Origin: Haloarcula rubra
GTDB taxonomy: Archaea > Halobacteriota > Halobacteria > Halobacteriales > Haloarculaceae
DNA length: 64,000 bases
Reading direction: 5' to 3'
NCBI RefSeq assembly: GCF_019599465.1
Contig: NZ_RKLR01000006.1
Coordinates: forward strand, 186,001 to 250,000
Made by a program: the position numbers and the translations under genes. The notes beneath the pieces were generated by a model. It ran no database searches and had not been told where the DNA came from. It saw nothing but the letters and a program-made list of their open reading frames with translations. Below, piece by piece: positions 25,530 to 63,144 of this stretch; position 1 is the first letter of the stretch; each line of letters begins with the position of its first letter.

Positions 25530-26189
25530 ATGTCGATTACAGCTAAAGTACACATCGAACACGAACGACTCGCACTCGTCCCGACGCTTCAGACCCTCGA
25601 AGGGATCAATATACGAGTCATCACACAGGGAAACACCGACCCGGGTTCGACCGTGTTCCCGTTTCTCATCGAGTACGACGACAGAGACGAGTTAGAGGCG
25701 ACGCTTGACGAGGACCCGACGGTCGATAGCTACGAACTCGTCGACTGGACCGACCGAACCGGAATCTACTATATCGAACACTCGCCGGAGACGAAGCTCA
25801 TCAGTACCGTCGTCACGGACGTCAACGGTTTCCTCGTCCACACCGAGACGAAGCGCCACGGATGGTTGGTTCGCCTCCTGCTCCCCGACCGTGCGGCGCT
25901 GAACACTATCTGGGAGTACGCCAACGAGAACGACATCGCCCTCGACATCATCGAGATATACGGCAACAGCGAGACGGGTGGCGAACAGTCCTACGGCCTG
26001 ACCGAGGAGCAACGCACCGCGCTGACGATAGCTTACGATGAGGGATACTTCGGAGAACCGCGCGACATCTCACTCAACGAGGTGGCCGACGAGATTGGAC
26101 TCTCGTCGACGGCTATGAGCGGCCGACTGCGCCGTGGGATGCGGAACCTCGTCGGGGCGACGCTCGTCGACGACGACACCGAGGAGTGA
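25530..26189 (+). CDS. Bat-like HTH_10 transcription regulator
   Basis: 219 residues from ATG at 25530 (MSITAKVHIEHERLALVPTL). The N-terminal 150 residues are the bacterioopsin-activator-type sensing domain; the C-terminal HTH_10 reads LTEEQRTALTIAYDEGYF, then ISLNEVADEIGLSSTAMSGR. Haloarchaea carry many paralogs. The roughly 290 bases upstream hold nothing else recognisable. The gene is probably monocistronic; targets unknown. Confidence 0.88.
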   Translation: MSITAKVHIEHERLALVPTLQTLEGINIRVITQGNTDPGSTVFPFLIEYDDRDELEATLDEDPTVDSYELVDWTDRTGIYYIEHSPETKLISTVVTDVNGFLVHTETKRHGWLVRLLLPDRAALNTIWEYANENDIALDIIEIYGNSETGGEQSYGLTEEQRTALTIAYDEGYFGEPRDISLNEVADEIGLSSTAMSGRLRRGMRNLVGATLVDDDTEE

Positions 26190-27606: not shown

Positions 27607-27655
27607 GGTGAGAATCACCGTCGAGAAGTGCCAGATTGCTACCGGTATATAAAAA
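27607..27655 (+). promoter_or_regulatory. TATA box and upstream dyad of the demethylase gene
   Basis: TATATAAAAA at 27646-27655 is the strongest TATA element of the window. A small inverted repeat, GGTGA (27607-27611) and TCACC (27615-27619) around GAA, lies 26 bases upstream of it, directly after the folA stop, at a place where an activator or repressor could sit. The predicted transcript start is near 27680, with about 30 bases of leader. Confidence 0.5.
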
Positions 27656-27709: not shown

Positions 27710-29095
27710 ATGTCCGGGAACGAAAGTCATCCCAATCACCCTAGTGTCGACCAGTCGGATCGGACAGTACCACGGAACTTGCGGCAGACCGGCGACCCCG
27801 GCATCGAGATGCTCGTCTCGACTCGTGTCCGCAAGTCACCGTTCTTCCACAAGTCCTTCAACGAGGAGGGTGCGTGGCGTGCTACCGTCTACAACCGACT
27901 CTATCACCCCCGCGGTCTCATCGAAGAGGAAGATGGCGGCGTGATGAAGGAGTACGATGCGCTGACCAACGATGTCACGCTCTGGGACGTCGCCGTCGAG
28001 CGCCAGATTCGCGTGAAGGGCCCCGACGCCGAGGAGCTGACGAACTACGTCGTCACCCGCGACGTGACGAGCATGGACGCGATGGACGGGAAGTACGTCA
28101 TCCTCTGTAACGAGGACGGTGGCGTCCTGAACGACCCCGTTCTGCTGCGTCCCGAAGAAGACGAGTTCTGGTTCTCTATTTCGGACTCGACCCTGATGCA
28201 GTGGCTCCAGGGAGTCAACGTCGACAACGAATTCGACGTCGAAATCGACGAGATCGACGTGGCCCCGATGCAGATTCAGGGGCCCAAATCCGAGGACGTC
28301 ATGGTCGACGTCGTCGGTGACGAGGTCAAGGACATCCCGTACTACGGCCTGATGGACGCCGAGATCAACGGAGCCGAAGTCCTCATCAGCCAGACCGGTT
28401 TCTCCGGTGAGGCTGGCTTCGAGATTTACGTCCGAGACGCCCACGAAAACGCCGAGCGTGTCTGGGACCCTGTTATGGCGAGCGTCAAAGACCACGGCGG
28501 TCGTCAGATCGCGCCGGGCCACCACCGTCGGATCGCCGCCGGTATCATGTCGTGGGGTCAGGACCTCGACCACGAGACGTCCCCGTTCCAGGTCAACCTC
28601 GGCTATCAGGTCCCCGACGACAAGGACGCCGACTACATCGGTAAAGAAGAACTCGAGCGCCAGAAGGAACTCATCGAGAACGGCGAGTACCCGTTCGAGC
28701 ACAAACTCATCGGCCTGAAGCTGGCCGGCGAGCCGATTCGGGACTACGCCCCGGACTTCTGGCTCATCTCCGACCCCGACACGGGCGAAGAATGCGGGTA
28801 CGTCACCTCGCCGTGGTGGAACCCGGACCTCGAGACGAACATCGCCATGGGCTTCGTGCCGGCCGACAAACTGCAGGAAGTCACCGACACGCCGCTCAAC
28901 GACGAAATCTACGACGAAGAACTGGACCTCGAGTTCCAGGTCCACCTGCCCGACGAGTACGCCGAAGAGGAAGGTGAACCGGTGTTCGCTACCGTCGCGA
29001 AGGTGCCGTTCAAGGAGTCCGTCAACCCGAGCGCTCGCGAACAGGCGAAACTCAACGCGCGCAAGGAAGCCGAAGCAGAGTCCAGCGACGACTAA
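27710..29095 (+). CDS. GcvT/DmdA-family THF-dependent demethylase
   Basis: 461 residues from ATG at 27710 (a TTG at 27698 is in frame). The GcvT fold binds THF and accepts a one-carbon group. The region 78-235 resembles DMSP demethylase DmdA and related O/N/S-demethylases: EYDALTNDVTLWDVAVERQI, RVKGPDA, NDPVLLRPEED, then APMQIQGPKSED (186-196), then TGFSGEAGFEIYV. DmdA is about 370 residues; this protein is longer, with an acidic C-terminal extension, closer in length to LigM/DesA demethylases. It is not the glycine-cleavage T protein, as no P, H or L genes are adjacent. Proximity to glyA and a MetF-like gene suggests methyl-THF is its product. Substrate (DMSP, betaine or another methylated compound) is undecided. 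Confidence 0.8.
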   Translation: MSGNESHPNHPSVDQSDRTVPRNLRQTGDPGIEMLVSTRVRKSPFFHKSFNEEGAWRATVYNRLYHPRGLIEEEDGGVMKEYDALTNDVTLWDVAVERQIRVKGPDAEELTNYVVTRDVTSMDAMDGKYVILCNEDGGVLNDPVLLRPEEDEFWFSISDSTLMQWLQGVNVDNEFDVEIDEIDVAPMQIQGPKSEDVMVDVVGDEVKDIPYYGLMDAEINGAEVLISQTGFSGEAGFEIYVRDAHENAERVWDPVMASVKDHGGRQIAPGHHRRIAAGIMSWGQDLDHETSPFQVNLGYQVPDDKDADYIGKEELERQKELIENGEYPFEHKLIGLKLAGEPIRDYAPDFWLISDPDTGEECGYVTSPWWNPDLETNIAMGFVPADKLQEVTDTPLNDEIYDEELDLEFQVHLPDEYAEEEGEPVFATVAKVPFKESVNPSAREQAKLNARKEAEAESSDD

Positions 29096-30085: not shown

Positions 30086-31333
30086 TCAGTCGTAGAGGGT
30101 GTATTCGTCGGTGAGTTCGTCGACGCGCTGGCTGACCTCGGCGACGACGTCGTCGTCGTGGGGCGCGTCGACGACGTCGTAGATGAGATCAGCGACTTCG
30201 CGACACGCTTCCTCACCGAAACCACGCGTCGTGAGACAGGGCGTGCCGGCGCGGATGCCCGACGGGTTGAACGCGGAGCGCGTTTCGCCGGGGACGGTGT
30301 TGGCGTTGAGGACGATACCGGCCTCCTCGAGGCTTTCCTCTACCTCCTTACCCGTGGTGTCGGGATGCGACGGCCGCAGGTCGACCAGCACGAGGTGGTT
30401 GTCCGTGCCGCCGGAGACGAGGTCCAGTCCGTGTTCCTGGAGTCGGTCGCCCAACGCCTTCGCGTTGGCGACGGTCTGTTCCGCGTAACGTTCGAACTCG
30501 GGTTCGAGGGCCTCGCCGAACCCGACGGCCTTGCCAGCGACGTTGTGCATGGCCGGGCCGCCCTGTGCACCTGGGAACACCGCACTGTCGATGTCACTGG
30601 CGTACTCCTCGTCGCACATGATGATACCACCGCGACCTGCGCGGATGGTCTTGTGCGTGCTGCCGGTGACGAAGTCGGCGATACCCACGGGCGACTCGTG
30701 GACGCCAGCGGCCACGAGGCCGGTGATATGCGCGATGTCCGCGAGGTGGTAGGCGTCTACGGCGTCTGCCGTCGCCTGAATCCGCTCGAAGTCGACTTCG
30801 CGCGGGTACGCCGAGTACCCCGAGACGATGATGTCCGGGTCGAACGACTCGGCCGTCTCGCGAAGTCCCTCGTAGTCGACGTAGCCGGTCTCGGCATCGA
30901 CTTCGTACTGTTCGACCTCGTAGACCTGCCCGGCGAAGTTCGCCGGGTGACCGTGCGAGAGGTGGCCGCCGTGGGTCAGGTCCAGCGAGAGTATCTTGTC
31001 GCCCGGTTCGAGCGCGGCGAGGTAGACACCCATGTTCGCCTGCGACCCGGAGTGTGGTTGGACGTTGACGTGGTCGGCACCCCACAGTTCCGTCGCGCGG
31101 TCGATGGCCAACTGTTCGACGTCGTCGGCGTACTCACAGCCACCGTAGTATCGTTCGCCGGGATATCCCTCGGCGTAGTTGTTTGTCAACTCGGAGCTCT
31201 GGGCCTCCATGACGGCCTCGGAGACGTGGTTCTCGCTCGCGATCATCGCCAGCGTGTCGTTCTGGCGGGCACGCTCGCCTTCGAGAGCCTCGGCTACGGC
31301 TGGGTCTGTCGCTCTGACAGTTTCGTACGTCAT
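30086..31333 (-). CDS. glyA: Serine hydroxymethyltransferase
   Basis: 415 residues from ATG at 31333 (MTYETVRATDPAVAEALEGE). PLP enzyme that interconverts glycine plus methylene-THF with serine plus THF. The PLP lysine is Lys228 in TGSTHKTIRAGRGG; the N-terminal IASENHVSEAV, YYGGCEYAD and VQPHSGSQAN are signature stretches. Length is typical of prokaryotic SHMT. A TATA-like ATAAAGA (minus strand, near 31391-31397) lies about 60 bases upstream, so it may be transcribed apart from the MetF-like gene 131 bases before it. In this context it would join glycine from demethylated betaines with a one-carbon unit to give serine. Confidence 0.95.
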   Translation of the reverse strand: MTYETVRATDPAVAEALEGERARQNDTLAMIASENHVSEAVMEAQSSELTNNYAEGYPGERYYGGCEYADDVEQLAIDRATELWGADHVNVQPHSGSQANMGVYLAALEPGDKILSLDLTHGGHLSHGHPANFAGQVYEVEQYEVDAETGYVDYEGLRETAESFDPDIIVSGYSAYPREVDFERIQATADAVDAYHLADIAHITGLVAAGVHESPVGIADFVTGSTHKTIRAGRGGIIMCDEEYASDIDSAVFPGAQGGPAMHNVAGKAVGFGEALEPEFERYAEQTVANAKALGDRLQEHGLDLVSGGTDNHLVLVDLRPSHPDTTGKEVEESLEEAGIVLNANTVPGETRSAFNPSGIRAGTPCLTTRGFGEEACREVADLIYDVVDAPHDDDVVAEVSQRVDELTDEYTLYD

Positions 31334-31464: not shown

Positions 31465-32325
31465 TTACTTTTCGAGGCGTTCGTACCGCCACGACTCCGT
31501 ATCGGGAGTCTGGTTGAACGTGTATATGTGTACGCCCTTGATGTTGTACTCGTCGTCGTCGACGTATGGGGCCAGACCGTCGATGAGGTCGTCGGGCTTG
31601 TACGTCCCCCGTGACCCGACGAGTTGCTTGATGAAGCCGAGGACACCAGTCGTCTTCTTGAGGAACTTGATGGAGTCACCGACGCCGACCTTCTGCGATA
31701 TCTGGAGCAATCGCTGATACTTCATGACACCGGGGATGCCGATTTCGACGGGGAGGTCGACGCCCCGGGCGCGAATCTTCTCGATCCATTCCAGCACGGT
31801 ATCGGGGTCGTAGCAGAGTTGCGTGACGATGTACGTCGCGTACGGTGCCTTCTTCTCCATGGCTTCGGCCAGCGTCTCGTCGTCGATGAAGTCGTGGCCC
31901 TCCGGGTAGCCGGTGATGCCGACCTCCTCGAACGAGTACTCCATGCCGTCGAGTGTCGAGAGGAGGTCGTACGCCGACTCGAACTCGCCCTCCGGTTCCT
32001 CTCGGTCGCCGCCCGGGACGAAGATGTCAGTGATGCCTGCCTCTGTGAGACGCTGGGCTATCTCCTCGAGGTGTTCCCGGTCACGGACGTAGCGCGCGGC
32101 GATGTGCGGGACGACTTCGAATCCCTGCTCGACGGCGTCCTCGGTCCGCTCGAGCGTCGCCTCGATGCCGAGTTGCGGAGAGGTCGTGATGGCAATAGTC
32201 GCGCCGTCGGGGAGATGCGTTATCTCCTCGTCGAAACTGTCGAACGGCATCAACTCGAAGCGAGCGTTCGTGAGGAGGTTCTCGACCCCGTCCTCCGGCG
32301 TCATGGTAGGACTTCGCAAGGACAT
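31465..32325 (-). CDS. metF: Methylene-THF reductase-like protein
   Basis: 286 residues from ATG at 32325, or 279 from ATG at 32304 (MTPEDGVENLLTNARFELMP). The family is a TIM barrel binding FAD and interconverting methylene-THF and methyl-THF. Seen: the barrel strands PDGATIAITTSPQLGIEATL, PHIAARYVRDREHLEEIAQR, DIFVPGGDREEP, the VGITGYPEGH motif of MetF, then YIVTQLCYDPDTVLEWI. It is more divergent than bacterial MetF. Beside glyA and the DmdA-like gene, it could work oxidatively on methyl-THF. A TATA-like CTTAAA lies at about 32385-32390. Confidence 0.82.
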   Translation of the reverse strand: MSLRSPTMTPEDGVENLLTNARFELMPFDSFDEEITHLPDGATIAITTSPQLGIEATLERTEDAVEQGFEVVPHIAARYVRDREHLEEIAQRLTEAGITDIFVPGGDREEPEGEFESAYDLLSTLDGMEYSFEEVGITGYPEGHDFIDDETLAEAMEKKAPYATYIVTQLCYDPDTVLEWIEKIRARGVDLPVEIGIPGVMKYQRLLQISQKVGVGDSIKFLKKTTGVLGFIKQLVGSRGTYKPDDLIDGLAPYVDDDEYNIKGVHIYTFNQTPDTESWRYERLEK

Positions 32326-32405: not shown

Positions 32406-33479
32406 TCAAGCCGCACGGGGGGTACATTCCCGGATACGACTGGCGACTCGCTCGTACGAGACAGTCTGTTCCGGGTTGTCCGACAACTGCCGCATGACGA
32501 GGTCCAGCAAGTTCAGTTCCTCCAGTAGTTCCTGCGTTTGCTGGCGTCCGAGGTCGAGGTGTCGCTGCACTTCGTAGACGGTTACCGAATCGACGACCGC
32601 GTCGGCGATGTCCTCCAGATGGACGTTCTCTGGGAGACCGAGTCCGTCGGTGACGAGTTGCTCGTCTGGAATCGTCTCCATCGGGTCCTCCGGGGCCGCC
32701 GTCACGGCCTGGTCCGCGTCCGTCGCCGGATTCACTGGGTTGGCGTCCGCGTCCGTCGTGTCGACGCCGGTCGAGGTGTCGTAGGAAGTCGGGTCGTGGA
32801 CGTCAGCCTCTATCATGTACCGCCGAACCGTCTCCGAGGAGACGTCCATTTCGATTCGCTCGCTCATCTCCGTGAAGTTCTCACAGGTCTCGTAGAGACG
32901 CTCGAGGTACGCCGTGTCCTCGTAGGGTGGCACGTCGTCGTCACGGACGGCCGCGAGTTCGTCTCGTTCGTCTTCAGTCTGTGCATCGTCGCTGTCGGAG
33001 CGCGGCGCGGACGGGTCGGCGCGGCCCCCGTCGAGAGCTGTCTGTTCCGGCGTCGATTGGTCCACTTTCCCTGAGTCGTGGACGCCGTCTTCCACGGCGA
33101 CTGCGTCGGCCGTCGTTTCCTCGGCTGGGTCGATAGTGAGTTCGACGCCCAGAACGATACCACCGTCTTCGACGCGGACTGCCTCTTCGCTCGCCGAGAT
33201 AGAAGCCGCAGTCGTCGGCGGGAGCGAAGCGAGAGCGGAAGATGAGAACTCGACCTGTAACCCACCGCCGTCGGTCAAGGTCGCCGTCTTCGGGGTCAGG
33301 TCAGAGTGCACGTCGTCACCGCTCGCTGCACACAGTGATACTGGGACCTCCATCGAGACGTTTAGCGACCCATCGTCGCTGTCGGTCGCAGTCGCTTCGA
33401 CGTCTCTGACGGTCCGGCCACGCGACTCGTACTGGTCGACGATTTCGGAGAGGACACCGAACGAGGTTTGTAGACCCAT
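32406..33479 (-). CDS. Haloarchaeal HTH protein, probable regulator
   Basis: 357 residues from ATG at 33479 (MGLQTSFGVLSEIVDQYESR). The N-terminal 120 residues are beta-rich. An acidic low-complexity linker follows (about 125-175). Then come two helix-turn-helix-like segments: YLERLYETCENFTEMSERIE with SSETVRRYMI, and LEDIADAVVDSVTVYEVQRH with ELLEELNLLDLV. This layout is seen in uncharacterised haloarchaeal proteins. A palindromic TATA and a six-base inverted repeat lie in its own promoter, which suggests autoregulation. Target genes unknown; the neighbouring one-carbon genes are candidates by position only. Confidence 0.75.
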   Translation of the reverse strand: MGLQTSFGVLSEIVDQYESRGRTVRDVEATATDSDDGSLNVSMEVPVSLCAASGDDVHSDLTPKTATLTDGGGLQVEFSSSALASLPPTTAASISASEEAVRVEDGGIVLGVELTIDPAEETTADAVAVEDGVHDSGKVDQSTPEQTALDGGRADPSAPRSDSDDAQTEDERDELAAVRDDDVPPYEDTAYLERLYETCENFTEMSERIEMDVSSETVRRYMIEADVHDPTSYDTSTGVDTTDADANPVNPATDADQAVTAAPEDPMETIPDEQLVTDGLGLPENVHLEDIADAVVDSVTVYEVQRHLDLGRQQTQELLEELNLLDLVMRQLSDNPEQTVSYERVASRIRECTPRAA

Positions 33480-34641: not shown

Positions 34642-35376
34642 ATGCACATCGAAGCCGAGACGTGGACGGACCTCGACGACGTCGAGACGAACCTCGCCCT
34701 GCTTCCGGTCGGAAGCACGGAGCAACACGGGCCGCACGCGCCACTCGGAACGGACACGCTCAACGCGGAGGCGGTGGCCGAACGGGCCGCCGGAGAGTAC
34801 GACGGTGAGGTAGTGGTCGCACCTGCGATTCCAGTCAGCGTCGCCGAGGAGCACCGAGCGTTTACCGGAACACTCTGGGTGTCGGAGTCGACGTTCCGGG
34901 ACTACGTCCGCGACGTCGTGGGAAGTCTGGCCCACCACGGCTGGGACCGAGTTGTCCTCGTCAACGGCCACGGTGGTAACATCGCCGCACTGCGGGAAGT
35001 GGCGAGTCGGATTTCGAGACACGACGACGCGTACGCGGTGTCGTTCACTTGGTTCGACGAGGTGGGAGACCACAGTTCCGACATGGGCCACGGCGGCCCC
35101 CTCGAAACGGCCCTCCTCCAGCACGCGAACCCGGAGACGGTCCACGAGGACCGCCTCGATTCGGCCGCAGAGAACGGGAGCGACCGCTGGGGTGACTGGC
35201 AGGGCCGTGTCAACCTCGCCTTCGACTCCGACGAGTTTACCGAGAACGGAGTGGTCGGCGACCCCCGCAATGGGAGCGCCGAACTGGGTGAGAACCTGCT
35301 GACTTCGGCCGCGGACGCACTCACGGATCTGTTAGACGCCGTCGAAGAGCGTCAGCCAGGTCCCAGAGAGGACTGA
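34642..35376 (+). CDS. Creatininase-family amidohydrolase
   Basis: 244 residues from ATG at 34642 (MHIEAETWTDLDDVETNLAL). Family metal-site residues are present: Glu27 and His29 in STEQHGPHAPLGTD, Asp38, His110 in VNGHGGN, and the MGHGGPLETALLQH segment with His150 and Glu155. The length equals creatinine amidohydrolase (about 258). Archaeal relatives include ArfB of riboflavin synthesis, so the family does not fix the reaction. The nearby sarcosine-type enzymes make a creatinine/creatine route conceivable, but no creatinase gene is in the window. Confidence 0.85.
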   Translation: MHIEAETWTDLDDVETNLALLPVGSTEQHGPHAPLGTDTLNAEAVAERAAGEYDGEVVVAPAIPVSVAEEHRAFTGTLWVSESTFRDYVRDVVGSLAHHGWDRVVLVNGHGGNIAALREVASRISRHDDAYAVSFTWFDEVGDHSSDMGHGGPLETALLQHANPETVHEDRLDSAAENGSDRWGDWQGRVNLAFDSDEFTENGVVGDPRNGSAELGENLLTSAADALTDLLDAVEERQPGPRED

Positions 35377-36087: not shown

Positions 36088-38661
36088 ATGGAGACGACAG
36101 ACAGCCTGCCGACCGAAGCTGGTACCGTCATCGTCGGTGCCGGCATCGTCGGTTGTAATCTGGCGTATCAACTCACGGAACTAGGACGCGACGACGTGGT
36201 CGTCGTCGACCAAGGGCCGATGCCGACGACAGGCGGGTCCTCGACCCACGCGCCCGGCATCATGTTCCAGACGGCCGAGCCGAAGGTACTCAGTCAGTTC
36301 GCAGATTACAGCCGTCGGCTGTACTCCGAACTCGAAGGCGCCGACGGACAACAGGCCTACAACGAAGTCGGCGGCATCGAAGTCGCCCGGAGCGAGGAGC
36401 GGATGGACTTCCTCCAGCGCAGGGTCGAACACGCCAAAGCGTGGGGTATCGACGACCCACAACTCCTCTCTCCGGAGGAGGTTACCGACCATCTACCGCT
36501 CGTCGACTCCGACCAGATACTGGGCGGGTACTACTCGCCGACGGACGGGCAGGTGTCGGGCGTCGTGGCCTGTGACGCACTCGCTCGGGAAGCGATGGAC
36601 AACGGCGCGAAGTTCGTCCCGCACACCCGTACTGAGGACGTCGTGACGGAGGGCGACTCCATCGAGGGTGTCGTCACCGAACACGGCACCATCGACTGTG
36701 ACGAAGTCGTCGTCGCGACGAACATCTGGGCCCGACAGTTGGGCGAGAAACTCGACGTCCACCTCCCGGTGACGCCCGTCGAACACCAGTACACGATGAC
36801 GGAGTCACTCGACGAACTCTCGGAGAGCGCCGTCGACATCACGGACCACCCGCTGTTCGAGAACTACGAGAACGTCTCTGGCGAGAAGGCCAAGCGCCTG
36901 CTCGTCGGCCCCGACCGGCCAATCCTCCGGGACCAAGACAACGCGATGTACTACCGGAACCACGGTGACGCCTACGGTATCGGCTCGTACAACCACGAGC
37001 CAATCGTTCCGGACCCGCAGGAGCTGGGCGGGAACGACCCGGACGGTGAACAGGGCTCTGTCCACGAGTTCACCGACTACCACATGAACACGGCGACCCA
37101 CCCGGACCGTCCGGACAAGGCGCCGCGACAGGCCAGCGACGAACTCATCCCGGCAACGAAGGACAAGAAACTCGAACACAAGTACAACGGGATGTTCGCC
37201 GAGTCGCCCAACGGCCTCCCCGTCATGGGGCCGGTACAGGAGTACGACGGTCTCTGGACGGCGGCAGCCATCTGGGTCACCCACGCCGGTGGGGCCGGGA
37301 AGGCACTGGCCGAATGGATGGAGAACGGCGTCCCGCGACTCCCCGAAGGCCCCATCGACCTCGCGCACTGCGACGTCAACCGCTTCGACGAACACGAGGG
37401 CAGTTGGGACTTCGCCCGCGACATCGGCGGCGAGGAGTACCGCATCGTCTACAACATCATGCACCCGAAGTGGGTGTGGACGGACCACCAGCGAGACATC
37501 CGCCGGACGCCGATGTACCACTCCCACGAGGAGTGGGACGCGGAGATGTGGGCCGAGGCCGGATGGGAGGCCCCGCAGTGGTTCGACGCCAACGCGGACC
37601 TGTTAGCCGAGTACGGCGACCAGATTCCCGAGCGTGAAGGCTGGGAAGGGAAGTACTACTCACCCATCGAGGGCGCCGAAGCGCTACACGTCCGGAACAA
37701 GGTCGGTCTGCACGACATGACCGCCTTCAACAAGATGGAGGTCGTCGGCGAGGACGCCGGCGAGTTCGTCCAGTACCTCTGTACGAACGACATGGACCTC
37801 GACGTGGGCGACGTGAAGTACACCCTCATGTGCAACGAGGCCGGCGGTGTCCGGGCCGACATCACGGTCACGCGCACGGACGAGGACCGCTACCTGCTCC
37901 TGACCACGGGCCGCGAAGTCGGGAACAACCACGTCGCGTGGGTCCGCGAGCAGTCGCCCGAAGACGTCCTCGTCAACGACGTCACCTCGAACCTCGCAGC
38001 GATGGTCTGTACCGGACCGGACGCTCGGAAGGTGTTGTCGAAGGTCACCGACGTCGACCTCTCGGACGACGCCTTCCCGTTCTTCACCAGCCAGCAGTTC
38101 TTCGTGAAGAACGTCCCAGTGACTGCGCTCCGCGTGTCCTACGCCGGCGAACTCGGCTGGGAGCTGTACACGCCCTCCGAGTACGGCGAACGCCTCTGGG
38201 AACACATTCTGGAAGCCGGCGAAGAATACGACATCCGGCCCTACGGGAACGGCGCGCTCGACGCCCTACGCATCGAGAAAGGCTTCCGCCTGTGGGGCGA
38301 GGACCTCCACACCGAACACAACCCGTACGAGGCTGGTCTCGGGTGGGCCGTCGACCTAGATACCGACTTCATCGGCAAGGAGGCCGTCGCCGCGGCCGCG
38401 AACGGGGACAACATCGACCACGAGGTTGCGTGCCTGACGTTGGACGACCCGGAGGCCGTGGTGCTGGACGACCGGCCCGTGCTCGACGGTGACGAAGTGT
38501 TAGGATACCTCCACAGCGCGGAGTACGGGTACACGGAGGGGGCCTGCGTCGCGTACACCTACCTCCCGCCGGAGTACGCCGAACCCGGCACCGACGTAGA
38601 GATTCTCTACGAGGGCGAGCGCTACGAGGCGACGGTCCGCGAGGAACCGCTCGTCTCCTAG
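36088..38661 (+). CDS. FAD oxidase-GcvT fusion, dimethylglycine/sarcosine dehydrogenase family (copy 1)
   Basis: 857 residues from ATG at 36088 (METTDSLPTEAGTVIVGAGI); an in-frame TTG at 36055 is less likely. N-terminal DAO-type FAD domain with VGAGIVG (16-22) and His54 in GGSSTHAPGIM, at the position of the histidine that carries covalent FAD in DMGDH and SARDH. The FAO_M linker domain follows (about 390-450), then a C-terminal GcvT domain (about 460-857) that takes up the one-carbon unit onto THF: LHDMTAFNKMEVVG, then YAGELGWELYTPSEYGERLW, then DFIGKEAV. Oxidative N-demethylation to methylene-THF is the family reaction; electrons go to ETF. Copy 2 follows on the same strand after 212 bases. 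Which N-methyl substrate it prefers is not evident. Confidence 0.88.
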   Translation: METTDSLPTEAGTVIVGAGIVGCNLAYQLTELGRDDVVVVDQGPMPTTGGSSTHAPGIMFQTAEPKVLSQFADYSRRLYSELEGADGQQAYNEVGGIEVARSEERMDFLQRRVEHAKAWGIDDPQLLSPEEVTDHLPLVDSDQILGGYYSPTDGQVSGVVACDALAREAMDNGAKFVPHTRTEDVVTEGDSIEGVVTEHGTIDCDEVVVATNIWARQLGEKLDVHLPVTPVEHQYTMTESLDELSESAVDITDHPLFENYENVSGEKAKRLLVGPDRPILRDQDNAMYYRNHGDAYGIGSYNHEPIVPDPQELGGNDPDGEQGSVHEFTDYHMNTATHPDRPDKAPRQASDELIPATKDKKLEHKYNGMFAESPNGLPVMGPVQEYDGLWTAAAIWVTHAGGAGKALAEWMENGVPRLPEGPIDLAHCDVNRFDEHEGSWDFARDIGGEEYRIVYNIMHPKWVWTDHQRDIRRTPMYHSHEEWDAEMWAEAGWEAPQWFDANADLLAEYGDQIPEREGWEGKYYSPIEGAEALHVRNKVGLHDMTAFNKMEVVGEDAGEFVQYLCTNDMDLDVGDVKYTLMCNEAGGVRADITVTRTDEDRYLLLTTGREVGNNHVAWVREQSPEDVLVNDVTSNLAAMVCTGPDARKVLSKVTDVDLSDDAFPFFTSQQFFVKNVPVTALRVSYAGELGWELYTPSEYGERLWEHILEAGEEYDIRPYGNGALDALRIEKGFRLWGEDLHTEHNPYEAGLGWAVDLDTDFIGKEAVAAAANGDNIDHEVACLTLDDPEAVVLDDRPVLDGDEVLGYLHSAEYGYTEGACVAYTYLPPEYAEPGTDVEILYEGERYEATVREEPLVS

Positions 38662-38873: not shown

Positions 38874-41426
38874 ATGAGCACAGAGGCTCCCCCATCACGG
38901 GCGGATACCGTCATCATCGGTGCCGGTGCCGTCGGGTGTAGTGTCGCGTACCACCTGACAGAACTCGGTGCCGAGGACGTAACGGTCATCGACCAAGGAC
39001 CGCTGCCGGTAACGGGCGGGTCGTCCGTCCACGCACCCGGCATCATGTTCCAGACGTCGCCGTCGAAGATTCAGACGAAGGCAGCTCACTACACGAGTCG
39101 GTTACTCTCGGACGCTGGCGTGTACGACGAGGTAGGCGGAATCGAACTCGCTCGGAGCGAGGACCGAATGGACTTCCTCCGACGCCGCAAGGAGTGGGCG
39201 ACGTCCTACGGACTGCCCGAGCCACAGCTCCTCTCCCCGGAGGAGGTTACAGACCACCTCCCGATGGTCGACGAGGACGAGATTCTGGGCGGGTACTACT
39301 CCCCGACAGACGGCCGCGTCGACGGCATCGCGGCGCTCCAGTGGTACATCGGCGAGTCCTCTGCGGACTTCTACGGCAACACCGAGGTCACCGACCTCGA
39401 CGTCTCCGGCGGCGAGATACAGGCCGTCGAGACCGACCAGGGTCGCATCGAGTGTGGCCGCTGTGTCATCGCCACGAACAACTGGGGCTACCAGACCGGG
39501 CAGTTGGCGGGACTGGACCTGCCCATCGCGCCCGTCGAACACCAGTACGTCGTCACCGAACCGATGGAAGAACTGGCCGACGCCGACTCCTCCGTCGGGG
39601 ACAACACGACGGGACTGGACGTACCCGGCGAACGCTCCATCGCGGAGTACATGAGCGAGGGGCCGCACCGACCGGTCGGCCGCGACCAGGACCACTCGCT
39701 GTACTTCCGGACTCACGGCGACTCGCTGGGGATGGGGTCGTACAACCACGAGACCCTGTCCGTGGACCCCGAGGAGATGGGCAAGAACTCCGAGGAGCGG
39801 CAGGCGTCGGTCCGCGGGTTCACCGAGGAACACTGGACGAAGCCGACCCACCGCGGCCGTGACAAGTCCGCGAAGCAGGCCTTCGACGAACTGCTCCCGG
39901 ACACCCAGGACGTGGACTACGAGATGACCGAGAACGGCATCTTCGTGTTCACGCCCGACGGGATGCCCGCCGTCGGCGAGACGGCGCAAGTCGACGGTCT
40001 CTGGACGGCACTGGCTATCTGGTGGACCCACTCCGGCGGCTACGGCCGCATCCTCGCCGAGTGGATGGAGAACGGCACGCCGCGGCTCCCGTCCGGGCCA
40101 GTCGACACTGGCGGCATCCACGTCCGACGGTTCGAACCCCACGCGGGCGAGAAGGACTACTTCGTGGATCGCGGCGCGAAGCGGTACGAGCAGGTGTACA
40201 GCATCGTCGAACCGCGCTGGCAACCCGACGACCACCGCCGTCTGCGCACCAGCCCGTTCTACCATCAGGAGAAGGAACTGGGCGCCGAATTCTACCAGAG
40301 CGGTGGCTGGGAGTCGCCGCAGTACTACGAGTCGAATGAGGACCTCGTCGACAAGTACGAAGACCAGATTCCCGAACAGGACGGCTGGCAGGGCATCAAC
40401 CGCTCGCAAATCGAGGCCGCCGAACACCTCCACACCCGCGAGAACGTGTCGATGTTCGACATGACCTCGTTCAGTTCCATCATGGTCGAGGGTGAGGGGA
40501 GCGAGGCATTCCTCCAGCGAGTGTGTAGCAACGACATGGATATCGACGTCGGGCAGGTCCGCTACTCGCTGCTGCTGAACGAAGGCGGCGGCATCCTCGC
40601 GGACATCACCGTCGTCCGACTCGACGACGAGGAGTACATGGTCACCACCGGCGGTGGCAACTCGCCGGGCATCCACGGCGGATGGTTAGAAGAGCACGCG
40701 CCAGAGACCGTCTCGGTCCACATCGAGGAGGGCGCGAAGTCCACCATCGGGCTCTGGGGGCCGAAGTCGCGGCTCCTGCTCCAGCGGTGTACCGACGCCG
40801 ACGTGACGAACGACGGGTTCCCGTACTTCCGCGCGAAGCAGATGTACGTCGGCGAGGTGCCGGTCATCGCCATGCGCGTCTCGTACGTGGGTGAACTCGG
40901 CTGGGAACTGTGGACGCCGACGGAGTACGGCCAGCGCCTCTGGGAGACGCTCTGGGAGGCCGGCCAGGACCTCGACGTCCGCCCGATGGGCGGCGGCGCT
41001 CTCAGTTCGATGCGACTGGAGAAAGGCTTCAGACTCTGGGGCACCGACATCGACACGGACTCGAACCCGTTCGAGGCCGGTCTCCCCTTCGCCGTCGACA
41101 TGGACACCGACTTCATCGGCAAGGAGGCACTCGAATCGGCGAAAGCCGACGGCATCGACAACCGCATCACGCCGCTCACCGTCGACGACTCGTCGGACAT
41201 CATGCTCTCGGGGCGTCCCGTCCTGAAGGACGGCGAAGCCATCGGTTACGTGCAGGCCGGCGACTACGGCTACAGTATCGGCGAGTCCATCGCCTACACG
41301 TACGTACCGAGCGAGTACGCCGAGGCAGGCACGTCGGTCCAGATTCAGTGCGAGGGCGAGACCTACGACGCGACGGTTCGGGACGAACCGCTGTTCGACC
41401 CCGGCCGGGAGAAGATACTCCGATGA
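38874..41426 (+). CDS. FAD oxidase-GcvT fusion, dimethylglycine/sarcosine dehydrogenase family (copy 2)
   Basis: 850 residues from ATG at 38874 (MSTEAPPSRADTVIIGAGAV). Architecture as copy 1: FAD-binding IGAGAVG near 15-21, His53 in GGSSVHAPGIMFQT as candidate covalent-FAD histidine, FAO_M region, then GcvT domain (FDMTSFSSIMVEG, YVGELGWELWTPTEYGQRLW, MDTDFIGKEAL). Copies 1 and 2 are closely similar along their whole length and clearly paralogs. It is followed after 61 bases by the serine/threonine dehydratase gene, probably one transcript. One copy may act on dimethylglycine and the other on sarcosine; the sequence alone does not tell which. Confidence 0.88.
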   Translation: MSTEAPPSRADTVIIGAGAVGCSVAYHLTELGAEDVTVIDQGPLPVTGGSSVHAPGIMFQTSPSKIQTKAAHYTSRLLSDAGVYDEVGGIELARSEDRMDFLRRRKEWATSYGLPEPQLLSPEEVTDHLPMVDEDEILGGYYSPTDGRVDGIAALQWYIGESSADFYGNTEVTDLDVSGGEIQAVETDQGRIECGRCVIATNNWGYQTGQLAGLDLPIAPVEHQYVVTEPMEELADADSSVGDNTTGLDVPGERSIAEYMSEGPHRPVGRDQDHSLYFRTHGDSLGMGSYNHETLSVDPEEMGKNSEERQASVRGFTEEHWTKPTHRGRDKSAKQAFDELLPDTQDVDYEMTENGIFVFTPDGMPAVGETAQVDGLWTALAIWWTHSGGYGRILAEWMENGTPRLPSGPVDTGGIHVRRFEPHAGEKDYFVDRGAKRYEQVYSIVEPRWQPDDHRRLRTSPFYHQEKELGAEFYQSGGWESPQYYESNEDLVDKYEDQIPEQDGWQGINRSQIEAAEHLHTRENVSMFDMTSFSSIMVEGEGSEAFLQRVCSNDMDIDVGQVRYSLLLNEGGGILADITVVRLDDEEYMVTTGGGNSPGIHGGWLEEHAPETVSVHIEEGAKSTIGLWGPKSRLLLQRCTDADVTNDGFPYFRAKQMYVGEVPVIAMRVSYVGELGWELWTPTEYGQRLWETLWEAGQDLDVRPMGGGALSSMRLEKGFRLWGTDIDTDSNPFEAGLPFAVDMDTDFIGKEALESAKADGIDNRITPLTVDDSSDIMLSGRPVLKDGEAIGYVQAGDYGYSIGESIAYTYVPSEYAEAGTSVQIQCEGETYDATVRDEPLFDPGREKILR

Positions 41427-41487: not shown

Positions 41488-42735
41488 ATGACAACGTCAG
41501 AATCCTCGGAACTGCCCGTCACCTACGCAGACATCGAACGGGCGCGTGAACGCCTCGACGACGACACCGTCGTCAAGAAGACGCCGGTCGAACGGAGTTC
41601 GTCGCTCGACGAGTTCGTCGGCGGTGAGGTGTACCTGAAGATGGAACACCTCCAGTGGACGGGGTCGTTCAAGACCAGAGGCGCGTACAACAAGATTTCA
41701 CAGGACGTCGAACAGGGCGTCGACGAGTTCGTCGCCGCCAGCGCGGGTAACCACGCACAGGGCGTCGCCCTCGCGGCGACGAAGTGCGGGGCGGACTCGA
41801 CCATCTTCATGCCGGTCAACGCCCCGCAGGCGAAGGTCGACGCGACACGAGGGTACGGCGCGACGGTCGAACTCGTCGGCAAGGACTTCCAGGAGACGAT
41901 GGCCCACGCGCAGGCCGCCGTCGAGGAGACGGACGCCGCGTTCGTCCACGCGTACGACGATACAGACATCATCGCCGGCCAAGGCACCCTCGGCGCCGAG
42001 ATGTATCACGACTGTCCCGACGTGGACACCGTGGTCGTGCCTATCGGTGGCGGCGGCCTCATCAGCGGCGTCTCGACGGCCATCAAGCACCTCTCGCCGG
42101 AGACGCGCGTCGTCGGCGTGCAGGCGACCGGCGCGGAGACGGTCCACGAGAGTCTGGACAAGGGGATGCCAGTGACGTTGGACGAGGTGGACACCATCGC
42201 CGACGGTATCGCGACCGGCGGCATCTCCGAGACGACCCTGAGCATCATCGAGCGCAACGTCGACGACGTGGTGACCGTCACCGACACCCAAATCGCGCAG
42301 GCCATCCTCCTGTTGATGGAACGCGCGAAGCAAGTGGTCGAGGGGGCGGCCGCCGCCTCAGTCGCTGCCATCCTGAGCGACGACCTCGACGTCACCGACG
42401 AGACGGTGATGCCCCTGCTCTGTGGCGGAAACCTCGACATGACTCAGCTCCGGACGGTGCTCATCCACGCGCTCACCGAGCGTCGCCAACTCATGCGCCT
42501 CCGGGTCCGAATCGACGACCGGCCCGGTGTCATGGAAGACATCTCCGGGACTATCGCGGACCAAGGCGCGAACATCCACGACGTCCGCCACGAGCGCTCC
42601 GTCGAAGACTTAGACGTCGGCGAGGCGTACCTCGTCTTCAACGTCGAGACCAGCGGACAGGAACACGCCGCCGCTATCGTCGACGCCATCCGCGAAACGG
42701 GATACCTGGTCGAAGACATCGCTCGAACTGTCTGA
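41488..42735 (+). CDS. ilvA: Threonine/serine ammonia-lyase (IlvA/TdcB-like) with ACT domain
   Basis: 415 residues. PLP lysine Lys62 in WTGSFKTRGAYNK, the tetraglycine phosphate loop VPIGGGGLISG near 185, and a C-terminal ACT domain (about 330-415, RVRIDDRPGVMEDISGTIAD). Family members deaminate L-threonine or L-serine to 2-oxobutyrate or pyruvate. Directly downstream of FAD-GcvT copy 2, in a cluster with glyA, it most simply turns serine into pyruvate and ammonia as the exit of demethylated osmolyte carbon. Biosynthetic threonine dehydratase for isoleucine is the alternative reading. Confidence 0.88.
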   Translation: MTTSESSELPVTYADIERARERLDDDTVVKKTPVERSSSLDEFVGGEVYLKMEHLQWTGSFKTRGAYNKISQDVEQGVDEFVAASAGNHAQGVALAATKCGADSTIFMPVNAPQAKVDATRGYGATVELVGKDFQETMAHAQAAVEETDAAFVHAYDDTDIIAGQGTLGAEMYHDCPDVDTVVVPIGGGGLISGVSTAIKHLSPETRVVGVQATGAETVHESLDKGMPVTLDEVDTIADGIATGGISETTLSIIERNVDDVVTVTDTQIAQAILLLMERAKQVVEGAAAASVAAILSDDLDVTDETVMPLLCGGNLDMTQLRTVLIHALTERRQLMRLRVRIDDRPGVMEDISGTIADQGANIHDVRHERSVEDLDVGEAYLVFNVETSGQEHAAAIVDAIRETGYLVEDIARTV

Positions 42736-44452: not shown

Positions 44453-46249
44453 ATGTCAGAAAGTGACGACACCACTGGAGCGATGTCGGACGGATTGCAG
44501 GTAGAGCTGTTCCATCCCGAGTCCGACCGGGAACCCGGTGACACCAACATCCAGCGTTTCGGGTTCGACGTCCATCCGATAGTCTTCCCGGTATCGCTGG
44601 TCATCATCGTCGCCTTCGTTGCGGCAACCATCGGCCTCGGTGAGCAGGCGTCGGCGGTGTACACGGACATATTCAACTTCATCAACGGAACCTTCGGTTG
44701 GTTCTACATTCTGGCGGTGAACCTGTTCATCGTCACGATACTGTACTTCGCTTTCAGCAAGTACGGCAACATCAGAATCGGCGGGGTGGAGGCCGAGAAA
44801 GAGTTCAGCGACTTCTCGTGGATGGCGATGCTGTTCAGCGCAGGCATGGGTATCGGCCTCATGTTCTTCAGTGTCGCCGAGCCGATGTGGCACTTCGGTT
44901 CCGGCGCCTCGGATTTCATGGTCGTCCCGCCCACTTTCGGTGCGGAGGGCGGTACAGCAGGTGCCGCCAGTGCCGCGATGGCACAGACGTTCTTCCACTG
45001 GGGATTCCATCCGTGGGCCATCTACGGACTGGTCGGTCTCGGACTGGCCTTCTTCTCGTTCAACCGCGGCCTCCCGCTAACGTTCCGGTCGATTTTCTGG
45101 CCGCTCCTGGGTGAGCGTATCTACGGGTGGCCCGGACACGTCATCGACCTCGTGACCGTCTTCGCGACGCTGTTCGGCCTTTCGACGTCGCTGGGTCTCG
45201 GTGTCGCACAGATAAACACCGGCCTGTCGTACGTCGGAGGGGACATCCTCGGCCTCGTCAACGTCCCGACAGGGACGGTACCACAAGTCGTCCTCATCGC
45301 GGTTATCACCGGCATCGCGACGCTCTCCGTCGCGGCTGGTCTCGAAAGCGGTGTCAAGCGCCTCAGCACGCTGAACCTCTACCTGATGTTCGCCATGCTG
45401 GGGTTCCTGCTCATCGTCGGCCCGACGGTGTACATCTTCGGGACGTTCGCCGACGGTCTCGGTGCCTACCTCGGCAACTTCCTGACGCTGAGCTTCTTCA
45501 CCGGCACTATCGGTGGCTCCGCCGCTCTGGGCGGCTACACCGTCAAGGGCTGGATGGGAAGCTGGACCGTCTTCTACTGGGGTTGGTGGATCGCGTGGTC
45601 GCCGTTCGTCGGGATGTTCATCGCACGCATCTCGAAAGGGCGCACCGTCCGCGAGTTCGTGCTCGGTGTGCTGTTCCTGCCGGCCATGTTCTCGTTCCTC
45701 TGGCTGGCGACGTTCGGCGGGTCGGCCCTCTGGGTCGAACTCGCTGGGGGCGGCGGTATCGCCTCGGCTGTTGCGAATCAGGGCCAGACTGTCGCGATGT
45801 TCGCCATGCTCGAGCAGTTCCCGCTGGGAGCCGTCACGGGACTGCTCGCGACGCTGCTGGTCGTCACCTTCTTCGTGACGTCCTCTGACTCTGGGTCGCT
45901 GGTCGTCGACCACCTGACCTCGGGTGGCAAGCACGACGTGCCGAGAGTCCAGCGTATCTTCTGGGCGGTCACGGAGGGCGCAGTCGCTGCAACGCTCCTC
46001 ATCGGCGGCGGCCTCGGGGCCCTGCAGACGGCCGCGATTACCACCGGCTTGCCGTTCGCGGTCATCCTCTGCCTGATGTGTTACACCGTCTATCTGGGAC
46101 TGGACAACGAGTACGAGATTCTCGAGTCCGAACAGTTCCAGGAGCGCATCCAGGACATGACCGCCGAAGAGGACGTCGACATCACGAAAGCCGGCGGCGA
46201 CGTCGTGACCGACGTCCAAGGCAGTGCGGACCCCGAAGGCAGCGACTGA
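44453..46249 (+). CDS. BCCT-family osmolyte transporter 1 (betaine-type)
   Basis: 598 residues, twelve membrane spans with acidic termini. It carries the sodium-coupled betaine-type features: GMGIG at 131-135 in the unwound helix, HWGFHPWAIY near 182-191, and the aromatic box WTVFYWGWWIAWSPFVG with Trp376, Trp378, Trp379 and Trp382 matching the Trp residues of BetP. Likely imports glycine betaine or a similar trimethylated compound with Na+. It has a long leader and is followed by a second BCCT gene after 228 bases. The hydrophilic C-terminal tail (about 560-598) is acidic and might sense osmotic state, as in BetP. Confidence 0.92.
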   Translation: MSESDDTTGAMSDGLQVELFHPESDREPGDTNIQRFGFDVHPIVFPVSLVIIVAFVAATIGLGEQASAVYTDIFNFINGTFGWFYILAVNLFIVTILYFAFSKYGNIRIGGVEAEKEFSDFSWMAMLFSAGMGIGLMFFSVAEPMWHFGSGASDFMVVPPTFGAEGGTAGAASAAMAQTFFHWGFHPWAIYGLVGLGLAFFSFNRGLPLTFRSIFWPLLGERIYGWPGHVIDLVTVFATLFGLSTSLGLGVAQINTGLSYVGGDILGLVNVPTGTVPQVVLIAVITGIATLSVAAGLESGVKRLSTLNLYLMFAMLGFLLIVGPTVYIFGTFADGLGAYLGNFLTLSFFTGTIGGSAALGGYTVKGWMGSWTVFYWGWWIAWSPFVGMFIARISKGRTVREFVLGVLFLPAMFSFLWLATFGGSALWVELAGGGGIASAVANQGQTVAMFAMLEQFPLGAVTGLLATLLVVTFFVTSSDSGSLVVDHLTSGGKHDVPRVQRIFWAVTEGAVAATLLIGGGLGALQTAAITTGLPFAVILCLMCYTVYLGLDNEYEILESEQFQERIQDMTAEEDVDITKAGGDVVTDVQGSADPEGSD

Positions 46250-46477: not shown

Positions 46478-48073
46478 ATGCGGACGATACGCACGACAGT
46501 ACAACAGTTCGTCGACGAGCTCGACCTCTCCGTGTTTGGGGTCGGGTTCTCGGTATCGTTGCTGGCGATTCTGGTGTTCTTCCTGAACCCGGAAGCGTCG
46601 GCAGCACAGATGGGACAGATAAACGAGTACCTCTGGACGGAGTTCATGTGGGTCTACGTCGGGACGATGTTCCTGATGGTCGTCTTCAGCCTGTGGCTGA
46701 TGTTCGGCCGATGGGGATCCATCAAGCTCGGGAAACCCGACGACGACCCCGAGTTCAGCCTGCTCTCGTTCTTCTCGATGATGTTCTCGGCCGGTATCGC
46801 GGCCGGCATCGTCTTCTGGGGGCCTGCGGAGGCGCTGAGCCACTACGAGACGGTGCCACCGCTCGTCGGCGCCGACTCCAAGACGCCGGCAGCAGCGGTC
46901 GGTGCGATACAGTACACGCTGTTCCACTGGGGTATCTCCTACTGGGTTCCGTACCTCATCGTCGCGATTCCGATAGCCTACTACGCGTTTCGGAAAGACG
47001 CCCCCATGCGCGTCTCGACGCTCATCGCGCCGTTCGTCGGCGTCGACAACCTCGATGGGTTCTGGGCGAAGACCATCGACATCCTCGCGGTGTTCGCGAC
47101 CATCGGCGGTATCGCGACGACGCTCGGGTTCGTCGGCAAGCAGTTCCTCACGGGACTCACCTACACACTCGGTGTCTCGCTCGGTGACGGCGGGACGGTG
47201 CTGATGATAACGGGGCTGACGGTGGCGTTCACCGTCTCCGTCACCCTCGGCGTCAAGAAGGGTATCGCGAGGGTATCGCTGTTCAACATGGCCGTCTTCG
47301 CACTGCTAGCCGTCGCCACGTTCCTGCTGGGTCCAACCAACTACATCATGAACACGGGCCTGCAAGCGGTCGGGGGCTACTTCGGCCAGTTCCTGACGAT
47401 GAGCCTCTACACGAACGCCGCTGGCACCGGTGAGTGGGTCGGGAACTGGACCGTGTTCTACTGGGCGTGGGTGTTCTCGTGGGCTCCGTTCGGCGGTCTG
47501 TTCGTCGCCAGAATCTCGAAAGGACGAACGATCCGGCAGGTCGTGGCGACGGCGCTGGTCGGCGCGACGGCCTCTACGATTCCGTGGTTCCTGACGATGG
47601 GCGGGAGCGCCATCTACTTCGAGCGCAACGACATCGCGCCGATGCTGGAGATGGTCGACCAGTACGGCGTCTCAGTTTCGGGGTTCCCGTTGTTCGCCAG
47701 TCTCCCGTTCGGTGAAGTGCTGGCGGCAGTGTTCCTGTTGCTTGTGGTGACGTTCTTCGTCACCTCCGCGGACTCCTCGACGCTCGCGCTGGGGATGCTC
47801 ACGACGGGCGGCAAGCAACACCCATCGACGGTCAATCGGGTCATCTGGGGCGGCCTGATGGGCGGCCTCGCGTCCCTGCTCATCGTCGGCGGGGGCATCA
47901 GTGCGCTCCGCTCGTCGGCTATTATCACCGGCTTCCCGTTCGCACTCATCTCCGTCGTCGCCATCGTCGGCATGGCGTTGGAGTTCCAGTCGGTCCGGCC
48001 GCTGCTGACGGCCGAGCGAGACCGGCCAACCCCCGGAACCAGCCGGTCGGCGGCAAGCACTGACGACGATTGA
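46478..48073 (+). CDS. BCCT-family transporter 2 (divergent substrate site)
   Basis: 531 residues, twelve spans, shorter tails than transporter 1. Family identity is clear from WTVFYWAWVFSWAPFGG and RISKGRTIRQVV. Compared with transporter 1 the aromatic box has Val332 where betaine carriers have the third Trp (WAWVFSW against WGWWIAW) and the glycine-rich sodium/substrate motif reads AGIAAG (105-110) instead of GMGIG. FHWGISYWVPYL replaces FHWGFHPWAIYG. Substrate and coupling ion may therefore differ, for example dimethylglycine, sarcosine, carnitine-like or sulfonium compounds. Start ATG at 46478 gives MRTIRTTVQQFVDEL. Confidence 0.9.
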   Translation: MRTIRTTVQQFVDELDLSVFGVGFSVSLLAILVFFLNPEASAAQMGQINEYLWTEFMWVYVGTMFLMVVFSLWLMFGRWGSIKLGKPDDDPEFSLLSFFSMMFSAGIAAGIVFWGPAEALSHYETVPPLVGADSKTPAAAVGAIQYTLFHWGISYWVPYLIVAIPIAYYAFRKDAPMRVSTLIAPFVGVDNLDGFWAKTIDILAVFATIGGIATTLGFVGKQFLTGLTYTLGVSLGDGGTVLMITGLTVAFTVSVTLGVKKGIARVSLFNMAVFALLAVATFLLGPTNYIMNTGLQAVGGYFGQFLTMSLYTNAAGTGEWVGNWTVFYWAWVFSWAPFGGLFVARISKGRTIRQVVATALVGATASTIPWFLTMGGSAIYFERNDIAPMLEMVDQYGVSVSGFPLFASLPFGEVLAAVFLLLVVTFFVTSADSSTLALGMLTTGGKQHPSTVNRVIWGGLMGGLASLLIVGGGISALRSSAIITGFPFALISVVAIVGMALEFQSVRPLLTAERDRPTPGTSRSAASTDDD

Positions 48074-51405: not shown

Positions 51406-51502
51406 AGCACATATGGTCGGCTTCGGCCTGATTAAGCTATCGCCGTCCCACGGAGCGGGCTCGAGCGCGTGATTTATTGGCATGGCTCCCGAGGCGATGG
51501 GC

Positions 51503-54602: not shown

Positions 54603-54837
54603 CTGCCCGGAGAACCGCTTTTAACGGTTGCTAAACTTCTCTCACCCAGTCCCAAGAGTCCGCGGTTGACCCGGGATGTGCGCCAAATCGAGAGCCGAAA
54701 GCCGCTGGTCAACCCTCTTTTCGGTCGCTTACTTGAATGGCCAGAGAATTATGGGGTCGGGTTCTTTCGCGTCTGAGCGGAATCGGTCCGTGTCGGTCGC
54801 GGGGAGAGCACCGCGTCTCGAACTCGGAGCGCAGACT

Positions 54838-57018: not shown

Positions 57019-57612
57019 TCACCAGTTTCTGTTGGCCCGGACCTGCGAAAGCGCCTCCTCCGCGGCAACTTCCATCTCCGCCGCCCGCCGTTCCATCTCC
57101 GTGACGAACTCCGGGTCCTCTATGGTCGCAAGGTTTGCGTGGACGGTGGATACGGAGCCTTCGAGAGCGGCGTGAGCCAGCAGTGCGCCGACGACAGCGT
57201 CGGGGACAGCGACCTGCGTCCCCTTCGCCGTGACGGTGACAGCGGCGTCGACGACGTCGAGGCAGATCTCTGCTGTCTCTATTGGGACCATCGTCGACCG
57301 CTTCGCTGCCTTCTGTATCCGGTCCGAGTCCCCCGACTCGAACGCCGTTTGCACTCGGTCGACGGCCCGCACGTCGTCATCGGCGAGTTCGAGTAGCCGA
57401 CGCCGACTCGCGGCGAGTGTGTCACGACAGTCGGTCATTTCGTCGGCGACGTCAGCGTGCTCCTCTGTCCCGAGCGTGTGGATACAGACCATCTCACAGA
57501 GCGCCGCGCCCATCGCACCGCTGATCCCGGCAACCGCGCCGCCGCTGGGTGTCACTTCGTTCGACGCAACGTTTTCGAGGAACTCGCCAATCGTCCGGTC
57601 GGCGAGCGTCAC
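57019..57612 (-). CDS. fchA: Methenyl-THF cyclohydrolase / formiminotransferase-cyclodeaminase family (FchA-like)
   Basis: 197 residues from GTG at 57612 (MTLADRTIGEFLENVASNEV), with GGAGGG a few bases upstream. The FTCD_C fold is marked by PSGGAVAGISGAMGAALCEMV near 22-42 and an all-helical remainder; the stand-alone size matches clostridial FchA (about 210), which converts methenyl-THF to formyl-THF. Located between the ETF oxidoreductase and etfA. With Fhs it makes the two lower steps from methenyl-THF to formate. Cyclodeaminase of histidine breakdown is the alternative but no formiminotransferase part is present. Confidence 0.85.
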   Translation of the reverse strand: MTLADRTIGEFLENVASNEVTPSGGAVAGISGAMGAALCEMVCIHTLGTEEHADVADEMTDCRDTLAASRRRLLELADDDVRAVDRVQTAFESGDSDRIQKAAKRSTMVPIETAEICLDVVDAAVTVTAKGTQVAVPDAVVGALLAHAALEGSVSTVHANLATIEDPEFVTEMERRAAEMEVAAEEALSQVRANRNW

Positions 57613-63118: not shown

Positions 63119-63144
63119 TACGTCGGACAAACGGAATCCAGCGT

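Follow-up and report, generated by a model that had tools for sequence, protein, structure and literature searches.

The window, a stretch of 64,000 nt of Haloarcula rubra (GCF_019599465.1, contig NZ_RKLR01000006.1, positions 186,001-250,000), carries a DmdA-like gene together with genes which, judged from the proteins they appear to encode, make its surroundings a betaine and one-carbon island:

25530-26189 (+): HTH_10 regulator, 219 aa
27101-27601 (+): dihydrofolate reductase-like, from its sequence and the dihydrofolate reductase annotation at the syntenic Haloarcula hispanica locus
27646-27654 (+): TATATAAAA, TATA-box-like, 64 nt upstream of the ATG at 27710 and the sole copy in the 64-kb window
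27710-29095 (+): DmdA-superclade GcvT-fold protein, 461 aa, proposed glycine betaine:THF methyltransferase (ORF, profile searches, tree)
30086-31333 (-): GlyA-like serine hydroxymethyltransferase, named from its sequence; conserved neighbor
31465-32325 (-): MTHFR-like (divergent MetF), proposed methyl-THF oxidizer (Pfam MTHFR, 5e-15; co-occurrence in 69/69 genomes)
32406-33479 (-): conserved protein with no Pfam match; in many haloarchaeal loci it separates the MTHFR from an AstE/AspA-like gene
34642-35376 (+): creatininase-family amidohydrolase
36088-38661 (+): FAD-GcvT, dimethylglycine/sarcosine dehydrogenase type (profile searches)
38874-41426 (+): FAD-GcvT, second copy
41488-42735 (+): PLP serine/threonine dehydratase with ACT domain
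44453-46249 (+): BCCT transporter, best match betaine_BCCT
46478-48073 (+): BCCT transporter, second copy
49018-51525 (-): FolC-FolP folate synthesis fusion
52845-54572 (+): formate-tetrahydrofolate ligase (FTHFS)
54676-57009 (+): Fe-S/CCG protein, possible ETF:quinone electron acceptor
57019-57612 (-): methenyl-THF cyclohydrolase, FchA-like
57771-58739 (-): electron transfer flavoprotein alpha
58741-59514 (-): electron transfer flavoprotein beta
59553-62087 (-): FAD-GcvT, third copy
62477-63130 (-): GTP cyclohydrolase I

The glyA and MetF-like genes lie 1.0 and 2.4 kb from the DmdA-like gene, the latter distance as given in the initial annotation. In Haloarcula hispanica, the annotated order is dihydrofolate reductase, DmdA-like gene (annotated as "glycine cleavage system protein T"), methylenetetrahydrofolate reductase, two FAD oxidoreductases, threonine ammonia-lyase, and BCCT. 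The DmdA-like gene there is HAH_RS18290 on pHH400 and the reductase gene is HAH_RS18285. As to the claim that the strongest promoter of the window drives the gene, the sigma-70 scan is not applicable to archaea and is uninformative, and high expression of the gene is an unsupported inference.

The ORF runs from an ATG at 27710 to a stop at 29095 and encodes 461 aa, in agreement with its first description. Both its GC3 (0.82) and its acidic product resemble those of the neighboring genes, and on these grounds it looks like a genuine haloarchaeal gene. All three stretches previously noted as reminiscent of DMSP demethylase (WDVA, NDPVLL, and IQGPKSED) are found in the protein. The excess over the 369-aa DmdA is 92 residues, close to the number anticipated, but its supposed, mostly C-terminal, position was only about half right; about 28-30 residues are N-terminal, roughly a dozen are internal, and about 50 belong to the C-terminal part. 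The Pfam domain GCV_T was matched at 3.1e-43 with 148.3 bits, exceeding the gathering score of 25.6. The top NCBIfam match was DmdA (NF009133, 7.6e-74), with 248.8 bits against a curated cut-off of 410, so that membership in DmdA is not met; none of the 292 Halobacteria genomes searched has a member above this cut-off. The second NCBIfam match was GcvT (161 bits, below the cut-off of 300), and the top PDB match was the DmdA structure 3tfh (2e-43). The LigM/DesA aryl O-demethylases were ruled out by their NCBIfam cut-offs (39.5 vs. 580 and 49.8 vs. 800 bits).

The maximum-likelihood tree of 62 rows places the protein in a DmdA superclade of 51 rows, divided by a long branch from GcvT and FAD-GcvT (100/100 support). 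An identity as the glycine-cleavage T-protein, which would have refuted the initial annotation, was thus rejected by its position outside the GcvT clade and by its GcvT score. Besides the clade of the target, the superclade contains true DmdA along with two proteins close to it, a group with members from Phaeobacter plasmids and elsewhere, and a small set of SAR86 proteins. The target clade (35 rows, 99/99) includes haloarchaea, SAR86, and other gammaproteobacteria and is separate from the characterized true DmdA. Within it, the haloarchaeal sequences form a monophyletic group (100/100) that nests inside the gammaproteobacterial ones and has SAR86 plus G651 as its sister (98/95); identity to the query is 62-64% for the SAR86 proteins. 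On the simplest reading of the tree, haloarchaea acquired the gene by transfer from bacteria.

In common with DmdA (Pelagibacter 3tfh; Rhodobacterales), the protein has the GcvT fold, the NDP motif, and other shared residues, and the active-site motifs of the superclade are invariant across 36 sequences. Unlike DmdA, it belongs to its own clade with N- and C-terminal extensions, and its genomic context is that of a dimethylglycine dehydrogenase and an MTHFR instead of dmdBCD. An N-terminal segment, HPNHPSVDQSDR...NLRQ, is conserved in the target clade, which also has YHPRG and HHRRIAAG where DmdA carries other residues. Phe231, which is aligned to W197 of Pelagibacter (the DMSP Trp, mapped here to W171 of PMC7487153), is also invariant in the 36 sequences, whereas true DmdA has Trp or Tyr (Tyr in three Rhodobacterales DmdA). 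Inference of the substrate from this single position is weak, as DmdA itself varies there. As an inferred THF methyltransferase, the protein would be a variant within the DmdA type.

Of two AlphaFold models, one was of low quality (pLDDT 61), and the other, built with FAD-GcvT rows, reached a pLDDT of 77.9. Comparison of this better model with DmdA 3tfh aligned 361 residues with an rmsd of 2.5 and Z of 36.2. However, GcvT, DmdA, and DMGDH structures all match it within one or two Z units (Z 36-37). The fold therefore confirms the GcvT-fold superfamily and leaves the substrate undecided.

Gene order around the DmdA-like gene was examined in 53 haloarchaeal loci whose flanks extend 9 kb or more in both directions. 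An MTHFR is found within 10 kb in 47 of them, FAD-GcvT in 30, a serine/threonine dehydratase in 23, and BCCT in 21. The dehydratase, GlyA, and FTHFS are among the most conserved haloarchaeal neighbors. Orthologues of the HTH_10 regulator (64-92% identical) are located just upstream of the gene in many haloarchaea, and weaker homologues lie 4-530 bp from GbcA-like genes.

The DmdA-like gene, MTHFR-like proteins, GbcA-like Rieske proteins, and PF16350, used as a mark of dimethylglycine/sarcosine dehydrogenase-type proteins, were searched for in the same 292 Halobacteria genomes and were found in 69, 72, 49, and 100 genomes, respectively. All 69 genomes with the DmdA-like gene have an MTHFR-like protein, compared with three of the 223 without it. 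All 69 also contain PF16350. Among the 100 genomes with PF16350, the DmdA-like gene or GbcA-like was found in 98, leaving two exceptions; the four converse exceptions are weak GbcA matches. Both genes are present in 16 genomes, and MTHFR occurs in only one of the 33 which have GbcA-like without the DmdA-like gene. Such a pattern would be expected of two enzymes that serve one first step, of which just one makes methyl-THF. The p-values of co-occurrence ignore the kinship of the genomes and thus overstate independence. Moreover, no anti-correlation between the DmdA-like gene and GbcA-like was detected over all 292 genomes (p = 0.14), and consequently their complementarity among PF16350-positive genomes is partly a selection effect. 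The only sampled Halobacteria with an MTHFR-like protein and without the DmdA-like gene are G057, G222, and G264.

The seven GbcA-only clusters that were fetched (L191-L197) contain FAD-GcvT, BCCT, and serine/threonine dehydratase; neither the DmdA-like gene nor MTHFR was found in them. Of the genomes in genus g39, five carry GbcA-like alone, and G216 has FTHFS, the DmdA-like gene, MTHFR, and FolD beside its GbcA-like gene as well. The GbcA-like Rieske genes (L124:9774-11027 (-) and L191-L197) are placed in clusters that also hold BCCT, FAD-GcvT, and a FAD gene resembling monomeric sarcosine oxidase, and they score far below the GbcA cut-off.

SAR86 are abundant marine gammaproteobacteria. In a SAR86 locus (L112), a BCCT transporter, FAD-GcvT, and the DmdA-like gene stand in tandem with gaps of 40-50 bp. 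Two other gammaproteobacteria (G403 and G520) carry a BetI-MTHFR fusion gene 12-40 bp upstream of the DmdA-like gene. The BetI part exceeds the NF001978 cut-off of 118 bits in both (140 and 132 bits), and the MTHFR domain is divergent. To our knowledge, a fusion of the BetI choline repressor with MTHFR has not been described before; the two genes are located at L166:8083-9612 (+) and L167:7723-9252 (+), directly upstream of the DmdA-like gene. Separate MTHFR genes adjoin it in three more bacteria (G504, G380, and G497). PF16350 is found in all 11 gammaproteobacterial genomes with closer members (including G403) versus two of the 19 without the gene, and it is missing from three basal bacterial genomes that carry a member.

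Glycine betaine ranks among the main osmolytes in saline waters, and its first methyl group is known to be removed by enzymes that depend on oxygen (GbcAB), on homocysteine (BHMT), or on a corrinoid protein (MtgB). The 461-aa protein is probably a THF-dependent glycine betaine demethylase; the data establish its family, phylogeny, gene order, and co-occurrence across genomes, and its catalysis, its substrate, and the direction in which MTHFR runs are inferred. In the proposed route, betaine would be imported by a BCCT carrier, and the protein would move a methyl group from its quaternary nitrogen to N5 of THF, in a redox-neutral transfer of the DmdA type yielding dimethylglycine and 5-methyl-THF. 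The neighboring MTHFR-like protein, working in the oxidative direction, would convert 5-methyl-THF to methylene-THF, which could proceed to formate or, via GlyA, to serine. The FAD-GcvT dehydrogenases would take dimethylglycine through sarcosine to glycine and pass the electrons to ETF. The firmest inference, held with considerable confidence, is the production of methyl-THF, and the link to methyl-THF anticipated by the initial annotation is supported by the MTHFR in every genome with the gene. Between the two candidates it had named, the betaine route is favored by the co-occurrence of PF16350, the exchange with the GbcA-like oxygenase, the BetI-MTHFR fusion, and the lack of BHMT; neither BHMT-type (PF02574) nor MttB-type (PF06253) proteins were found in the host genome. 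The genetic links expected of the proposed glycine betaine:THF methyltransferase, to methyl-THF oxidation and to dimethylglycine oxidation, are both borne out by co-occurrence.

DMSP or another betaine as substrate is not excluded, though DMSP looks the less likely of the two candidates. The donor could be a different quaternary amine (proline betaine, carnitine, choline, or similar), with the same transfer to THF, the same MTHFR link, and a product that feeds FAD-GcvT. The specificity of BCCT carriers and of FAD-GcvT enzymes is not strict, which leaves room for such a donor, and one copy in G520 (L165:3720-9813) adjoins a cis-3-hydroxyproline dehydratase-like enolase, an aminotransferase-like gene, and FAD-GcvT, a hint of proline betaine metabolism. 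On the other hand, the serine/threonine dehydratase, GlyA, and FTHFS neighbors fit glycine as the product, and the choline sensed by BetI belongs to betaine metabolism; such a donor is quite possible, though given less weight than glycine betaine. Still less probable is a divergent DmdA that demethylates the sulfonium DMSP to methylmercaptopropionate. DmdA is indeed the nearest characterized family, a bacterial relative with 61% identity (L161) has a DmdB-like ligase and an enoyl-CoA hydratase adjacent, and relatives of 36-39% in P. inhibens P88, G355, and Marivivens are found beside DmdB/DmdD-type acyl-CoA ligase and enoyl-CoA hydratase genes. But in the haloarchaeal loci examined (fetched loci, not whole genomes), homologues of the P. 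inhibens DmdC and DmdD are absent from all and DmdB matches of just 28-29% occur in three. In addition, the Phe at the position of W197 differs from the Trp/Tyr of DmdA, and the link to PF16350 and the exchange with GbcA-like would remain unexplained.

The GcvT fold, along with PF16350 in every genome with the gene, would also suit an accessory aminomethyltransferase that passes the one-carbon unit of dimethylglycine/sarcosine oxidation to THF, with MTHFR and GbcA-like unrelated. Yet a GcvT domain already exists within the FAD-GcvT proteins, and the product would be methylene-THF, which explains neither the strict MTHFR link nor the absence of MTHFR in GbcA-only genomes; this role is therefore judged improbable. 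YgfZ and IBA57 are non-catalytic members of the GcvT-fold family, and a folate-binding protein of regulatory or YgfZ-like type, without methyl transfer, is conceivable by analogy. Against it stand the nested position in the DmdA superclade with invariant active-site motifs and the catabolic operon context, and very little weight is given to it. As regards glycine betaine itself, it was reported not to improve the growth of Haloquadratum walsbyi (PMC3102087), and the presence of the DmdA-like gene in Haloquadratum is evidence against the betaine role. The Haloquadratum loci (L062 and L068) lack the usual neighbors. The ligase and hydratase next to the L161 relative and the three basal bacterial members without PF16350 also weigh against betaine. 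A GbcA-like Rieske protein is encoded on a different contig of the host genome (140 bits, GbcA cut-off 670); where both genes occur, the first step could be doubled or the substrates could differ.

GbcAB is proposed for the same step and GbcA-like genes occupy similar clusters, but it is a Rieske oxygenase which depends on O2 and makes no methyl-THF. MtgB/MttB corrinoid methyltransferases and BHMT likewise demethylate betaine non-oxidatively; their folds are unrelated and they need cobalamin or homocysteine. The best explanation of the data is a betaine:THF methyltransferase independent of oxygen, cobalamin, and homocysteine. It is somewhat probable, again as an inference, that this constitutes a fourth way of betaine demethylation, with direct DmdA-like transfer to THF and oxidation of the methyl group via a reversed MTHFR, spread in gammaproteobacteria (including SAR86) and haloarchaea. 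If true, it supplies the missing first step for SAR86 and for haloarchaea with dimethylglycine dehydrogenase-type genes and no known betaine demethylase, explains the near-exclusive occurrence of Halobacteria MTHFR with the DmdA-like gene, and predicts strains able to use betaine without oxygen.

No report of a THF-dependent betaine demethylase was found in the open-licence papers searched. In work from 2020 on how DmdA evolved, homologues from Halobacteriales and further halophiles were assigned to a "non-DmdA" clade that lacks the DMSP-specific Trp; the authors gave it no function or pathway and compared it by fold to dimethylglycine dehydrogenase (PMC7487153). The 461-aa protein is very likely a member, and AEM59334.1 of that list is probably from Haloarcula hispanica. 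In SAR11, the DmdA-like aminomethyltransferases SAR11_1303 and SAR11_1265 lie beside metF or near betaine transport genes, and a role of SAR11_1303 in betaine metabolism was postulated (PMC3160333); SAR11, however, has BHMT, and that work includes no co-occurrence test. A comparison of ten haloarchaea in 2011 reported dimethylglycine-oxidase-like genes near BCCT carriers and no first-step enzyme (PMC3102087).

A second paralogue, 69-70% identical, forms its own subclade (L123:9480-10853 (-), in the host genome C34:14645-15757, and L175:6912-8417) and possibly acts on another substrate. In Natronococcus (L069/L175), it is in tandem with the first copy. The operon that holds the 38% relatives (L176:9971-14049 and L172:6524-10578) is conserved and also encodes an OsmC-family protein, an enoyl-CoA hydratase, and a DmdB-like ligase, perhaps another onium demethylation pathway. 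In Marivivens (L204:5998-11157), a gene whose sole annotation is GcvT C-terminal barrel protein lies in an operon of AMP-ligase, acyl-CoA dehydrogenase, and dmdD; it groups with DmdA and is probably an unannotated DMSP demethylase.
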